A stretch of 64,000 nucleotides of DNA from Bacteroidales bacterium. Its GTDB lineage: Bacteria > Bacteroidota > Bacteroidia > Bacteroidales > UBA932. The DNA lies in assembly GCA_022647615.1 (NCBI GenBank), contig JALCKZ010000001.1, forward strand, positions 794,178-858,177. The letters are read 5' to 3'. The position numbers and the translations under genes are program-made. Position 1 is the first letter of the stretch. The number at the start of each line of letters is the position of its first letter. The notes under the pieces were generated by a model. The model worked only from the letters and a program-made list of their open reading frames with translations. It had not been told where the DNA came from and did not search any database. Positions 55,180-60,656 of the stretch are shown here, piece after piece.

Positions 55180-55261
55180 AACTAAACATTTTAAAGTTAA
55201 ACATCTAGTGTAGTAATTTGACTTTGTGCGTGTTGAAAGCGTCCGGCAGATAAGCCGTCCG

Positions 55262-55313
55262 TTCCTTTTAGCATTTTTTAGCGTGGTTGCAAGCAGTCAA
55301 ATCTCTCCACTTA
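55262..55313 (-). ncRNA. SAM-II-like riboswitch in the metK leader
   Basis: On the RNA strand, GUGG-AGA-GAUUUGACUGCUUGCAA-CCAC is followed by GCUAAAAAAUGCUAAAAGGA. This matches the SAM-II consensus as I know it (GAUUUAAC...UUGCAA, a GCGUGAUAAAU-like link, GCUAAAAAGG), with P1 formed by GUGG/CCAC. The expected transcript start (about 55313, from the TACCTTTG box at 55320-55327) falls right at the first base of P1. The GGA ending is about 80 bases from the metK start codon, unlike classical SAM-II, where it overlaps the ribosome-binding site. The downstream AGUCAAAU (55223-55216) is fully complementary to the AUUUGACU of the core (55302-55295), a possible switch. Confidence 0.6.
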
Positions 55314-55319
55314 TATGTG

Positions 55320-55483: not shown

Positions 55484-58400
55484 ATGAAACAAACTATTAA
55501 GCTTTTTGCCTTGACGGTTTTGAGCTTGTTTGTATCTGCGGGCTTGTTTGCCCAGGTTACAACATCCTCAATGAGCGGCAAGGTAACAGAGAAGGACGGG
55601 AGTCCTGTAGTTGGCGCTACTGTTATAGCAACGCACACTCCGTCCGGTTCTAAGTATTATTCAACCACCGATAATTCTGGTAATTATCGTATCTTGAATA
55701 TGAGAATCGGAGGACCTTATGACGTTGAAGTCTCACTGCTTGGTTATGGCAGCAACAAGACAGGAGGCGCATACCTAAAATTAGGCGAAAACTTTGTTCG
55801 CAATGTGGTAATGAACGTAGAGGCTGTTGCACTTAATGAAGTTGTAGTTCAGGCCAAGGGAAATAACCCAATCATGAACTCAGATAAGAACGGTGCTTCT
55901 ACAAACGTAAGTTCAACACAATTAAAGCAACTTCCTTCCATCAGCAGAAGTATTCTTGATTTTACCAAGTTTACTCCTCAGGCAAATGGAACATCATTTG
56001 GAGGCCGCGATAATCGTATGAATACCGTAACAATCGATGGTGCAGCATTTAACAACAATTTTGGATTGAGCACATCTCAAATCCTTCCCGGAGGAAATGC
56101 ACAGCCAATTGCTTTGGACGCTATTGAGGAGGTATCCGTTAACTTGGCTCCGTTTGATATCAGACAGTCACAGTTCACCGGCGCATCTATCAACGCAGTT
56201 ACAAAGAGCGGTACTAACAGATTTTCAGGTTCCGTTTACTCTTATTTGAGACCTAAGAAATTCACCGGCAACAAAGTTGGAGATTACACAGTTGCAAATG
56301 CACGTGATTCCAAAGCAGAGACTTATGGTGTAACATTCGGAGGCCCAATCATTAAAGACAAATTGTTCTTCTTTGTCAGCGGCGAGTATGAGAAAGAGAC
56401 TTCTCCTTCAGGCGCTTATGAGCCAAGTACAGATGGTACTTCAAACGTATCAACCAAGACTTCACGTACAACCGTTTCTGATTTGAAGGCTATGCATGAT
56501 TATCTGCTAAGCCAGTATGGTTATGAGGCAGGTGCATATCAGAACTTCCCTAACTTTAAGAGCGATAACCACAAGATTCTTGCAAGAATCGACTGGAACA
56601 TCAATAAGAACAACAAGTTCACTATCAGATACAATGAGGTTGTCGGAACATCAGACCAGCTGACAAATGCAAACTCCGCTCCTAGCCCTAGAGGTTCCGG
56701 ACGTAGTTCCATTTATTCAGTCTCTTTTGGTAATTCCTGGTACGGTTTCAAAAACACTGTAAGAAGTATAACGGGTGAGTTGGACAGCCATTGGGGAAAA
56801 TTCTCCAATCAGCTGCTTGGTTCATACACAATGATTGAGGATAAGAGAACTTCAGATAGCGGTGTGTTCCCGTTTGTTGATATCTACAAAGGCGGAGACC
56901 AATATATGTCATTTGGATATGAGCTATTTACTTATGGAAATGATGTTAAGAACAACACACTTTCTGTAAAAGATAACTTGTCTATCAACCTTGGCGACCA
57001 CAACCTTACATTTGGCGCCTCTTTCGACAGACTATATTTTAAGAATGTTTACATCAGAGAAGGTACGTCATACTACAGATATAACTACAACAATACAGTA
57101 GACCCTGCAACAGGCGTTACTTATGCAGATGGTATGTCTGCTTTCTATGCAAATGCAACTCCAACCGCTTTTGCCGTAACTTACGGATATAATGGACAAA
57201 GCACTCCTGGTGTTGAGCTTTCATTCGGCCTAGGCGCATTATATGCTCAGGATGAGTGGCAGGTAAATGACAAAGTTAAGGTTACGATGGGTTTAAGAGC
57301 TGAGCTTCCTTTCTATCTGAATAGCTTGGACAACAACCCTGCTGTTAATGCTTACGGCTTTAACAAATGGAACAATACTTTCAGAGATCACTACACTGTT
57401 GGAGAATCAGCAGAGAAGAATTACTACATGAACAGCGGCAAGTGGCCAAAGAGAAAACTGGAACTTAACCCAAGAATTGGTTTCAACTGGGATATTAACG
57501 GAGACAGAAGTCTTCAGTTAAGAGGTGGTTCAGGTTTCTTTAGTGGCATGCTTCCTTTTGTATGGTTTACAAACCAGCCAGGCGGTTCAGGTATGATTCA
57601 GTCTCCTGAGATTATGATTACCAACCTTTCTACGTTGGCTCAGAACAAGATAACCTTTAACAAAGATTACAAGGCTATGATTGCTGCTCATCCAACATTG
57701 TTCCCTACAACCCCTGGTAAAATTCCTTCAGGTTCAGCACTTTGCGAGGTTTCAAAAGACTTCAAGATGCCTCAGGTATGGAGAAGTGATTTGGCTTTGG
57801 ATATAGCTCTTCCTTGGAACATGGTTTTGACTTTGGAGGAAATTTTCTCCAAGGATATCAATGCCGTTATGCAGAAGAATGTGAACTTGCAATATCCTTC
57901 AGGATACTATTCCGGAATGGATGACAGACCTTACTGGACAAATACAAGAATCAATTCAGATTTAAGCTCTGCGATGGTTCTTTGCAATACAAGCAAAGGT
58001 TTCCAGAATTCACTTACTGCTCAGTTGACTAAGAACTTGACAAGAGGTCTTTCCGGAATGATTGCTTACACTTATACAGTTGCTAAGGACGTTACAAACA
58101 ACCCTGGTTCTACTGCATCATCAGCATGGAGCGCCAACTCAGTTGTTTCTTATTTGAATGACCCTGAGCTTGCAGCTTCCGGTTTTGCTGTTCCTCACAG
58201 ATTAGTTGGAAACATCTCCTACAGATTTGAATGGCTTAAACATTTTGCTACAACTCTTTCACTATCCTACACAGGAGAGTCTCAGGGTAGAGCAGACTTC
58301 TGCTACTCAAATGATATGAATAAAGATGGCAACTCATCTGATTTGATGTATATCCCTGGAAGTAAGGGCGAGCTTGCATTTGTAACTTCTACTTACACAT

Positions 58401-58897
58401 ATACAGATGCTAACAAGGTTAAGTATAAATATACTGTAACTGACACACAGATGAGAGATGCATTCTGGACATTAGTTGAGGGCAACTCTTATTTGAAGAG
58501 CCATAAAGGCCAATATGCTAAGAGATATGGTTATGTTGAGCCATGGCACAACAGATGGGATGTTAAGGTTATTCAAGACATCTTCACAAACTTTGGAAGC
58601 AACAGAAGATATACTCTACAGGTCAGCTTAGACATCATCAATGCAGGCAACCTTCTTAACAAGAATTGGGGCGCTTACAAGACAATGGGTTCAATGTCTT
58701 ATGATAGAATCCGTCCTTTAACTTTTGTTAAGGCTGTTAACGGTGTTCCTACTTATATGTTGAATGCATCAGCTGCAGGAGCAAATGATTCTGCAGAGGC
58801 AATCGTAAGCAGATGGGCAGGAAACAATACTTGGCAGAAGAGCGTTTCTACAGGCAGTACCTGGGGAATGTTGTTTGGCGTAAGATTGTTGTTCTAA
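55484..58897 (+). CDS. Oar-like TonB-dependent receptor
   Basis: 1137 residues. A signal peptide (ending GLFAQ) is followed by a carboxypeptidase-regulatory-like domain (MSGKVTEKDGSPVVGATVIA, about 30-115). The plug is at about 120-240 (NGTSFGGRDNRMNTVTIDGA, FTGASINAVTKSGTNRFSGS). A very long barrel ends WGMLFGVRLLF. This is the Oar/OmpA-adhesion-like class of TonB receptors; ligand and exact role are unknown, and surface adhesion has been reported for relatives. It is a single-gene unit with its own promoter and terminator. Confidence 0.93.
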   Translation: MKQTIKLFALTVLSLFVSAGLFAQVTTSSMSGKVTEKDGSPVVGATVIATHTPSGSKYYSTTDNSGNYRILNMRIGGPYDVEVSLLGYGSNKTGGAYLKLGENFVRNVVMNVEAVALNEVVVQAKGNNPIMNSDKNGASTNVSSTQLKQLPSISRSILDFTKFTPQANGTSFGGRDNRMNTVTIDGAAFNNNFGLSTSQILPGGNAQPIALDAIEEVSVNLAPFDIRQSQFTGASINAVTKSGTNRFSGSVYSYLRPKKFTGNKVGDYTVANARDSKAETYGVTFGGPIIKDKLFFFVSGEYEKETSPSGAYEPSTDGTSNVSTKTSRTTVSDLKAMHDYLLSQYGYEAGAYQNFPNFKSDNHKILARIDWNINKNNKFTIRYNEVVGTSDQLTNANSAPSPRGSGRSSIYSVSFGNSWYGFKNTVRSITGELDSHWGKFSNQLLGSYTMIEDKRTSDSGVFPFVDIYKGGDQYMSFGYELFTYGNDVKNNTLSVKDNLSINLGDHNLTFGASFDRLYFKNVYIREGTSYYRYNYNNTVDPATGVTYADGMSAFYANATPTAFAVTYGYNGQSTPGVELSFGLGALYAQDEWQVNDKVKVTMGLRAELPFYLNSLDNNPAVNAYGFNKWNNTFRDHYTVGESAEKNYYMNSGKWPKRKLELNPRIGFNWDINGDRSLQLRGGSGFFSGMLPFVWFTNQPGGSGMIQSPEIMITNLSTLAQNKITFNKDYKAMIAAHPTLFPTTPGKIPSGSALCEVSKDFKMPQVWRSDLALDIALPWNMVLTLEEIFSKDINAVMQKNVNLQYPSGYYSGMDDRPYWTNTRINSDLSSAMVLCNTSKGFQNSLTAQLTKNLTRGLSGMIAYTYTVAKDVTNNPGSTASSAWSANSVVSYLNDPELAASGFAVPHRLVGNISYRFEWLKHFATTLSLSYTGESQGRADFCYSNDMNKDGNSSDLMYIPGSKGELAFVTSTYTYTDANKVKYKYTVTDTQMRDAFWTLVEGNSYLKSHKGQYAKRYGYVEPWHNRWDVKVIQDIFTNFGSNRRYTLQVSLDIINAGNLLNKNWGAYKTMGSMSYDRIRPLTFVKAVNGVPTYMLNASAAGANDSAEAIVSRWAGNNTWQKSVSTGSTWGMLFGVRLLF

Positions 58898-58913
58898 AAC
58901 ATTATAGTTGATT

Positions 58914-58945
58914 AAAAAAGGCTGTCCAAATGGGCAGCCTTTTTT
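58914..58945 (+). terminator. Terminator of the Oar-like gene
   Basis: GGCTGTCC pairs with GGGCAGCC (one G-U), flanked by A6 and T6. Confidence 0.9.
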
Positions 58946-58955
58946 ATTGCATGTA

Positions 58956-59260
58956 CAGCAACCTGCTGTGCAGGTTGCTGAGCAATGCGTTTAATAGCCG
59001 GCCAATGCCGGCTATATTTGCCGGCGCACAAAGCACGCCGGCAATTAGTGTATTACGCGGCTACCGCCGCGGAAATGCACGCGCTAAAGCGCGGGCCTTC
59101 GGCCTTGCAATTATTACTTCATGTATATATAAAGACGAGCGGCTGAAAGCCGTGAGTCCCGGCACGGAGTGCCGGTGCATCCTGCGCACGAAGTGCGCTT
59201 GACCACAAGGCAATGCGCTGCATTGTAGCGCATTGCTTTGCAAACTGCTTAGCAGTTTGC
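58956..59260. repeat. Array of about eleven consecutive, unrelated hairpins
   Basis: Perfect inverted repeats at 58956-58980 (10-bp stem), 58994-59015 (9), 59018-59044 (9), 59057-59067 (4), 59080-59093 (5), 59094-59104 (4), 59140-59152 (5), 59159-59175 (7), 59184-59198 (6), 59210-59236 (10) and 59240-59260 (9). Loops are mostly 3-9 bases and often read GAA, GGA, CTA or TTA. Stem sequences differ from one to the next. The array fills the 367-base gap between the Oar terminator and the DUF4270 gene. I find no credible gene in it; the last hairpin, followed by ATTTTT, could end plus-strand transcripts. Confidence 0.9.
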
Positions 59261-59264
59261 ATTT

Positions 59265-60656
59265 TTATTTATCCTTGAGGATAGCGTAAACAATTTTGAT
59301 ATAAGGATAGTTGGCGTTTGCCGGACCGTTTATCCTTCCCATTGTGTAAGTTGAAGCATCCAGGGAGTATGTTGTTGAACTGGAGCTAGAATAATAAGAG
59401 CTGCTGGAAGATGCAACGATTGGCATAATCCACAATTTGTACAAAGGCTCTGCGGCAACATCTTTTCTGTCAGCCTTCATTATTTTTTGGATTGTGCTGG
59501 CCATCTGTCCCTCATAATAGTAAAGAGATCTGTTGATTGCGCCAACCGCATTGCTTGTGCTGTAAACGTCTGAAAGAGGATAATAGTAGTAATCTGTTGT
59601 ATCTGCAACTTTGTGACAAGGATATAGATATTGCGGATAATAGCTTGTAACTCTGCTTTCATCTGTCGGGAGCTCATAAGGCAAATAATAAGTTGCGCCG
59701 CTTATTAAAATTCTATTTTTATCATATCCCTGCTTTGCTGCCCACGCATCCAAAGTGTCCTTCAGAGCAACAGGGTCTACATAAGGTTTAAGTCCTCCTA
59801 CTCCCTCAATATCAATGTATTTCTGAGGCGTATCAGATTCCATGGCTTTGGACTCATAGGTGGATTCATTCTGAGCATAGTCTACACCCAAAGCAAAAGT
59901 TATCGTAGTATCTTTTCTTGCAAGACCGCTTTTCCATGTTGGCTGGAAATTAACTTGCATATACATGTAAGTAGAACTAACAGTCCATTTGTTCAATCTG
60001 CCGCCGTAAGTTCCTGCAGCAGGAGGATCACATGTAAAATACAATCCCTTATATCCTTTTACAAACTGAGTCGTAGAATCTAACTGTAAATCAGTTGCTT
60101 TAAGAATATCTTCTCCAAGACTATTGTCAAGATATATTGTCAGGGAATCTGTGCCGGTATAAACGGTGCTGCCTTTATTTATCTGTGTATGAATGTAATC
60201 AGAACTCTTAATCATGTTGTTGTACTTGTCGGTAGTATCAACATATTTGTTCATTCTGTAAACATGTATGTTTTGAGTTATGCCCTCCTGGCTTGCATCC
60301 GGAATAGAGTTTCCGCTAAGAAGCATGGTGATAAAAATCTTCTTTACATAAGCTCCTGTTCCTAAGTTCATTCCGGAAGACACAGGTGCAAAATTGGTGG
60401 CGCATGTAAAATTGGCCAGACCAAATTCTTTTGTTCTTATTGCCCCAAAATAACCATAAGATGTATTAAGCGCCTGCATGCTGTCTGCAACTCTGGTTTT
60501 TAGCGGCATGTGGAAAGTAGCCGTCCCAACCTGCATTATATAATCATCGGGAACATAATTGTCACCGATAGTTTTATCTACTGATATGCAGGAATATGTG
60601 AGTAGCGATGCCGCCGCCGGCAAAATCAGATAACGGAAGAAAGCCTTGAATTGCAT
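59265..60656 (-). CDS. DUF4270 domain lipoprotein
   Basis: 463 residues. The signal AAASLLTYSC is a lipobox. The body (GTATFHMPLKTRVADSMQALN, SYGYFGAIRTKEFGLANFTCATNF, LNIP-type strands) follows the DUF4270 pattern, a Bacteroidetes family of surface or periplasmic lipoproteins of unknown role. It overlaps the upstream glycogen synthase-like gene by one base, an association seen widely in the phylum. A serine-rich stretch (ASSSSSYYSSSSSTTYS) lies near the C-terminus. CTGTCGGGA is present at 59663. Confidence 0.85.
   Translation of the reverse strand: MQFKAFFRYLILPAAASLLTYSCISVDKTIGDNYVPDDYIMQVGTATFHMPLKTRVADSMQALNTSYGYFGAIRTKEFGLANFTCATNFAPVSSGMNLGTGAYVKKIFITMLLSGNSIPDASQEGITQNIHVYRMNKYVDTTDKYNNMIKSSDYIHTQINKGSTVYTGTDSLTIYLDNSLGEDILKATDLQLDSTTQFVKGYKGLYFTCDPPAAGTYGGRLNKWTVSSTYMYMQVNFQPTWKSGLARKDTTITFALGVDYAQNESTYESKAMESDTPQKYIDIEGVGGLKPYVDPVALKDTLDAWAAKQGYDKNRILISGATYYLPYELPTDESRVTSYYPQYLYPCHKVADTTDYYYYPLSDVYSTSNAVGAINRSLYYYEGQMASTIQKIMKADRKDVAAEPLYKLWIMPIVASSSSSYYSSSSSTTYSLDASTYTMGRINGPANANYPYIKIVYAILKDK

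Follow-up and report, generated by a model that had tools for sequence, protein, structure and literature searches.

Among the described systems closest to the repeat reported here are the REP elements, which are defined by a GTAG/GTGG motif 0-2 nt 5' of the hairpin foot, or by a CGTC/TGTC tag (PMC3733652, PMC6006769). Y1 enzymes act on REP hairpins strand-specifically (PMC8266576), REPIN hairpins have been reported to show compensatory changes on their two sides (PMC3116915), and the Y1 subclass 2.6 of the Bacteroidetes has been linked to atypical structures (PMC6006769). In Streptococcus pneumoniae, BOX, RUP and SPRITE are modular composite interspersed repeats with predicted folding, which are over-represented between convergent genes and have been read as mobile parasitic elements (PMC3049150). 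Dispersed repeats in bacteria are usually traced by their sequence. In the repeat described below, the hairpin order, linkers, loops and pairing are kept but the stem sequence is not, and for that reason a reader, or a plain repeat search, would take most copies for hairpins with no relation to one another.

The repeat was met in a stretch of 64,000 nucleotides, here called the window, which covers positions 794178-858177 of the 2,229,011 bases (2.23 Mb, one contig) of the genome of a Bacteroidales bacterium (G000). Eleven stem-loops occupy window positions 58956-59261, between the convergent genes for a TonB-type porin (55484-58897, plus strand) and a DUF4270 protein (59265-60656, minus strand). 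The intrinsic terminator of the porin gene, recognised by sequence and fold at 58914-58945 on the plus strand, lies outside the repeat. The original prediction, made from the letters alone, had described about eleven stem-loops at this place, between convergent genes and behind a normal terminator, and was correct in each of these respects. As DNA, the region 58900-59320 folds at -121.5 kcal/mol (z -10.45, with 0 of 100 shuffles as good), and the array gives z -10.0 as RNA and z -10.7 as minus-strand DNA; a z of about -10 rules out a chance origin. GC-rich perfect hairpins cluster at the array alone in the 64-kb window and are scattered and few elsewhere in it. A known structured RNA family was ruled out, as a search of the array against Rfam 15 gave no match at the gathering level and the relaxed matches fell 15-50 bits below the cut-offs. 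A phage or plasmid origin was rejected, as searches for the unit in viral contigs, phages and plasmids gave no match. The window also holds a SAM-II riboswitch (55258-55316, minus strand, 58.3 bits).

Far from being a chain of unrelated hairpins, the array consists of two head-to-head, inverted copies of a single unit about 130 bp long. Read 5' to 3', the unit has the order hp1-hp2-TGCATCC-hp3-TTAACCACAAG-hp4-hp5. The first hairpin, hp1, occurs as GGCC-GAA-GGCC, as GAC-GA-GCGGC-AAA-GCCGC-GA-GTC or as a longer, terminator-like hairpin. For hp2, CGCGACC-GTA-GGGAGCG and CCGGCAC-GGA-GTGCCGG are examples, and for hp3, CGCGGC-GGTA-GCCGCG and GCGCAC-GAA-GTGCGC; the linker between these two hairpins is TGCATTTC. 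After the hp3-hp4 linker, TTAACCACAAG, comes hp4, for example GCAATGCGCTGC-TTT-GTAGCGCATTGC, and hp5 is usually then present. The original prediction had called the hairpins unrelated and had offered repeated hairpin-making events as one explanation; an origin in eleven independent events is rejected by the unit shared across copies and by the covariation described below. Its denial that they are copies of a single REP is right for the individual stems, though the dispersed five-hairpin repeat was overlooked.

The left copy of the unit (58956-59106) runs on the minus strand; model R1, described below, matched 853195-853283 (minus strand), equal to window 59018-59106, and the full copy was set by sequence. 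It comprises hp1 (GGCC-GAA-GGCC, 59094-59104), hp2 (CGCGCTTTAGCGCG, 59080-59093), hp3 (CGCGGC-GGTA-GCCGCG, 59056-59071), linker 3 (TAATACACTAA, 59045-59055), hp4 with the conserved GCTTTGT tip (59018-59044), an extra hairpin between hp4 and hp5 (ATAGCCGGC-CAAT-GCCGGCTAT, 58994-59015) and hp5 (CAGCAACCTGC-TGT-GCAGGTTGCTG, 58956-58980), all on the minus strand. An AT-rich centre (59105-59133) separates it from the right copy and resembles the centres of the inverted pairs at 447033, 1530326/1530480 and 1763051/1763192. The right copy, on the plus strand at 59134-59261 (R1 match 853323-853413, plus strand, equal to window 59146-59236), comprises hp1 (GAC-GA-GCGGCT-GAA-AGCCGT-GA-GTC, 59134-59158), hp2 (CCGGCAC-GGA-GTGCCGG, 59159-59175), linker 2 (TGCATCCT, 59176-59183), hp3 (GCGCAC-GAA-GTGCGC, 59184-59198), linker 3 (TTGACCACAAG, 59199-59209), hp4 (GCAATGCGCTGC-ATT-GTAGCGCATTGC, 59210-59236) and hp5 (TGCAAACTGC-TTA-GCAGTTTGCA, 59239-59261). 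The hairpins had been described as perfect; several are not, among them the right-copy hp1, which has two tandem G.A pairs below its GAA-looped stem, and the hp4 type, which has a conserved G.T pair adjoining the loop.

The copies of the unit have conserved linkers and stems that differ yet remain complementary. In an alignment of 27 units, 91.6% of the cells were paired, against 70.3% after shuffling and 21-48% in controls with slid partners. Two-sided changes numbered 143 against 41 when shuffled. Since the aligned copies share descent and were aligned by structure, this shuffle count yields no probability; the argument for covariation is carried by the slid control and by how many types of pair occur. 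In these 27 units, hp4 had 97.2% of its cells paired, with two-sided changes at 10 of its 12 pairs, and hp3 had 100%, with two-sided changes at three of six pairs. The hp4 pair next to the closing pair was G.T in 27/27 aligned units, and this G.T was kept in 46 of 48 copies. A test of the stems for covariation, one of the checks proposed with the original prediction, was thus positive, and the selection for structure that it had raised agrees with stems that stay paired despite sequence change; for the roles it had offered, as a barrier, an RNA decoy or an insertion target, nothing was found in support. What is preserved, these comparisons suggest, is the folded shape and not the sequence of the stems.

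The loops of hp2 and hp3 begin with G and end with A, while the middle varies (GTA, GGA, GAA; GGTA, GGCA, GACA, GATA, GGGA, GCAA). DNA loops of the c(GNA)g and c(GNNA)g kinds have unusually high stability. On the sense strand of the unit, GNA outnumbered TNC by 29 to 5 and GNNA outnumbered TNNC by 17 to 1, and among 77 copies the unit plus strand was the more stable in 56 against 19 with DNA energies and in 50 against 27 with RNA energies. This loop asymmetry and the better folding of the sense strand mark one particular single strand as the structured one. Tetraloops were GNYA in 11 cases and GNRA in 6, and isolated stem mismatches were G.T in 8 and A.C in 7, which leans towards DNA without settling the matter between DNA and RNA; G.U tolerance as a mark of RNA selection was rejected on the latter count. 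Tandem G.A pairs also occur in hp2, and the sub-motif concerned, GCGACCGNAGGGAGC, has 31 perfect matches in the genome.

The array gave 60 BLAST matches in its own genome. A covariance model, R1, which had a poor automatic structure of 17 pairs and was used solely for listing copies, gave 91 matches; 81 had E<=1e-3, and 77 were taken into analysis; a further model, R2, was given a hand-set structure. About 75 intergenic copies are present, and a search of the genome for similar arrays, the other check run from the original prediction, therefore showed that the array does not stand alone, contrary to the lack of other arrays that had been named as a refutation. Most copies are single units, and four inverted pairs share a common AT-rich centre. 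The ends of copies are sharp and their flanks unrelated, and pairwise similarity repeatedly ends near TGTCCCC-AAGGCC, at the hp4 end or at the hp5 end. The copies at 762415 and 770167 differ in their hp1 hairpins, although they share 99% identity from hp2 to past hp4. With 60 distinct hp2/hp3/hp4 combinations in 75 copies, and four-gamete violations between all three slot pairs, hairpins are exchanged between copies as modules. To judge from these ends and combinations, the element probably moves, or has moved, as a unit with modular parts. No target duplication of at least 4 bp was found at the unit ends in any of the seven copies with both ends recognised.

Integron-like cassettes were considered, as some clusters repeat a gene and a unit in one orientation, and were rejected: attC core boxes (RYYYAAC and GTTRRRY) stood at the two ends of 0/77 copies and 1/77 shuffled ones, and the two clusters that were read (L188 and L203) resemble segmental duplications or a defence locus. 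One cluster (L188, genome positions 957500-963500) has four same-oriented units in tandem segmental duplications adjoining an ORF6N-domain gene. In another (L203 646-6701, genome positions 2221145-2227200), three genes that resemble defence genes (AbiEi-like, Abi_2/AbiD, and a third whose N-terminal part weakly matches ThsA) are interspersed with partial copies of an NTP_transf_5 gene, from its 3' end, and a unit follows most of these partial copies; the cluster is possibly an insertion hot spot built by repeated duplication. Other dispersed intergenic repeats, AACTGTCTGATCTGGGGTAGTC..., GTGTTGCTATCGCCATTGTG... and GTAACTTGCTGGCCTGATCCG..., often lie beside units (stretches L009, L014, L024, L026, L145, L146 and L216, and L148 and L156 of the nearest species).

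In the nearest species (G001), whose flanks are about 80-87% identical, the better model found nine matches, several of them decayed. This species conserves both genes of the window locus but lacks the array; the units at 242327, 1193484 and 1469728 are likewise absent, the first of these lying within a composite insertion of about 700 bp with GAGGTAA on both sides. Orthologous units in the same orientation are present at 447033, 91457 and 125169. Between 447033 and its counterpart (L239), compensated (G-C to A-T) and wobble changes have left the pairing intact. In L233, set against its counterpart at 125169-125254, the 15-nt core of hp4 is exactly inverted (GCATGCTTTGTATGC vs GCATACAAAGCATGC), which looks like the signature of an intrastrand event. 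At 147440, 241297 and 1467917, the G001 unit is in the opposite orientation and has other stems, which is best accounted for if each species has lost a different half of an ancestral inverted pair or if the units were inserted separately; replacement of stems in place at 147440 and 241297 was rejected, as with the orientation opposite, half-retention or separate insertion is equally likely. Of about 117 other Bacteroidales genomes, only G004 and G047 gave a match, a single weak one in each case, and the G047 locus, when read, showed nothing resembling the unit. The GCGACCGNAGGGAGC hairpins, with tandem G.A pairs and a GNA loop, are found at low copy next to 5S rRNA in congeneric species, and three more distant Bacteroidales genomes have them within short runs of hairpins (stretches L281, L282, L283, L286, L289, L291 and L279, L292, L294, L280, L288).

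The units lie downstream of genes, near stop codons. Gaps with units were tandem in 36 cases, convergent in 27 and divergent in 6, against 44, 9 and 21 for gaps without (p 1e-4), where gene calls were simple open reading frames and the gaps and copies compared are not fully independent. In tandem gaps the structured strand was the sense strand of the upstream gene in 32 cases and antisense in 11 (p 0.002). A replication-strand bias was rejected, the split of 34:43 being not significant (p 0.36, with dnaA at 76.6 kb taken as the origin). A sense terminator stood within 260 nt upstream of 20/77 units and of 11/56 control gaps, and termination was rejected as the explanation, as the units are close to the controls in this respect; the original prediction had likewise held that the array goes beyond what termination explains.

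We take this to be a lineage-specific dispersed five-hairpin repeat that has probably spread as a non-autonomous element by way of an enzyme acting on the folded strand, a reading to which we give a probability of roughly 0.5. Its mobilisation or maintenance probably takes place on the folded single strand. A Y1/HUH transposase of the RAYT kind, able to act on single-stranded DNA in its folded form, would recognise loops, linkers and helix geometry instead of stem sequence, and stems would be free to drift, to be repaired by intrastrand templating or to swap between copies, provided that pairing holds. Insertions would survive mainly behind genes, where they do least harm; such a position fits tolerated insertion, as argued for the pneumococcal repeats (PMC3049150), or use as a 3' RNA structure. 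The genome has seven Y1_Tnp (RAYT-like) genes (L141-L147, at 859745, 965515, 2186799, 401882, 903216, 218607 and 328199). Several are flanked by short tandem or inverted repeats of their own that differ from the unit; ATCGCCTTTAAAAAAGTTA surrounds L141, its repeat pair recurring without the gene at about 242400-242530, and the L144 and L146 proteins have in-frame repeats. Around these genes no intact units were found in the manner of a RAYT and its REP, one unit lying about 1 kb from one gene and a lone hp4 piece near another. The flanks carry other repeats, and a link between these enzymes and the unit is one that we infer. The absence of a GTAG/GTGG foot and of a Y1 gene flanked by intact units speaks against a folded-strand element, as does an orientation that tracks transcription (32:11) and not replication. 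A stronger form of the idea, a mobile element coded by its shape, in which a multi-hairpin single strand is recognised by loops, linkers and helix geometry and the stems are swappable cassettes, is put forward as a tentative proposal that may well be wrong.

The same orientation with transcription suits a different reading, which we consider doubtful, in which the units act as RNA in 3' untranslated regions to protect, end or regulate the upstream transcript, with pairing selected in the RNA. The closeness to stop codons, the sense orientation in 32/43 tandem cases, the G.T (G.U in RNA) pair fixed in hp4, the wobble and G-C to A-T changes through which the orthologues at 447033 keep their pairing, and the intrinsic terminator-like hairpin that replaces hp1 in a number of copies would all accord with it, although a terminator at hp1 would leave the rest of the unit untranscribed. 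Selection in RNA should moreover favour G.U, and G.T and A.C mismatches are equally common; the tetraloops are GNYA more often than GNRA, 11 of the 43 tandem copies are antisense, and neither a promoter nor an Rfam family was found.

Pairing might instead be kept by mutation, in a repeat that was once mobile and is now a neutral relic, its stems maintained by template switching, with one arm copied onto the other. Template switching can create and repair stems in single events (PMC8794818), and the inverted hp4 core at 125169 is what it could leave behind. Such repair would, however, erase imperfections that persist, the hp4 G.T in 46 of 48 copies and the tandem G.A pairs in hp2; it gives the linkers no protection, yet these are conserved, and the loops hold their first G and last A while the middle varies. 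We regard neutral upkeep as rather unlikely for the repeat as a whole. Template switching, which the original prediction had named as a possible source of the hairpins, may help to rewrite or repair stems and supply compensated changes within a folded-strand element, but leaves the conserved linkers, the fixed hairpin order and the dispersal unexplained. Still less probable, and in our judgement very unlikely, is a MITE of a classical DDE transposase with the two units as its long terminal inverted repeats. Four loci do have inverted pairs around a conserved AT-rich centre, and one unit lies in the insertion of about 700 bp that has GAGGTAA on both sides and is absent from the sister species; but several further repeats share that insertion, and the 7-bp repeat is therefore not assignable to the unit, most copies are single, the unit ends lack target duplications (0/7), and in the loci read no transposase gene lies between units.

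The folded-strand element that we favour may be set beside the known systems. Like the REPINs and BIMEs that accompany RAYT (TnpA_REP, Y1), which are high-copy extragenic palindromes, often in inverted pairs around a spacer, with a strand-specific folded single strand, the unit is a palindromic repeat with about 75 intergenic copies, though longer and composite: five hairpins in about 130 bp against one palindrome of 20-40 bp. Its stem sequence is free and its linkers are fixed, and inverted doublets are not its main form. In 75 copies, GTRG precedes hp2 in four and no other hairpin, and YGTC is absent. We do not file the unit as a REP, because the defining GTAG/CGTC tag is absent and no cognate Y1 transposase was identified; by analogy it may work like a REPIN or a BOX element, and REP membership is not claimed. 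The likeness to BOX, RUP and SPRITE is drawn from their description, and BOX varies by the copy number of tandem boxB, whereas in this unit hairpin number and order stay constant, and it is the stems that are swapped or rewritten. The repetitive hairpin-forming and double-hairpin elements of mitochondria are also hairpin units that lie dispersed between genes and are regarded as mobile; in those of sponges, stems are conserved and loops vary, the reverse of what is seen here (PMC2800124). The BrickBuilt MITEs of Porphyromonas gingivalis are likewise a Bacteroidales intergenic repeat thought to be non-autonomous, but consist of a minisatellite within a MITE, and their description mentions no hairpin chain with covarying stems (PMC4596501). 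If the folded strand is indeed what is recognised, the roughly 75 natural variants could be used to learn what the enzyme requires in a structured DNA (or RNA) element, and would offer a test case for whether compensated stem changes originate in selection, template switching or exchange between copies.
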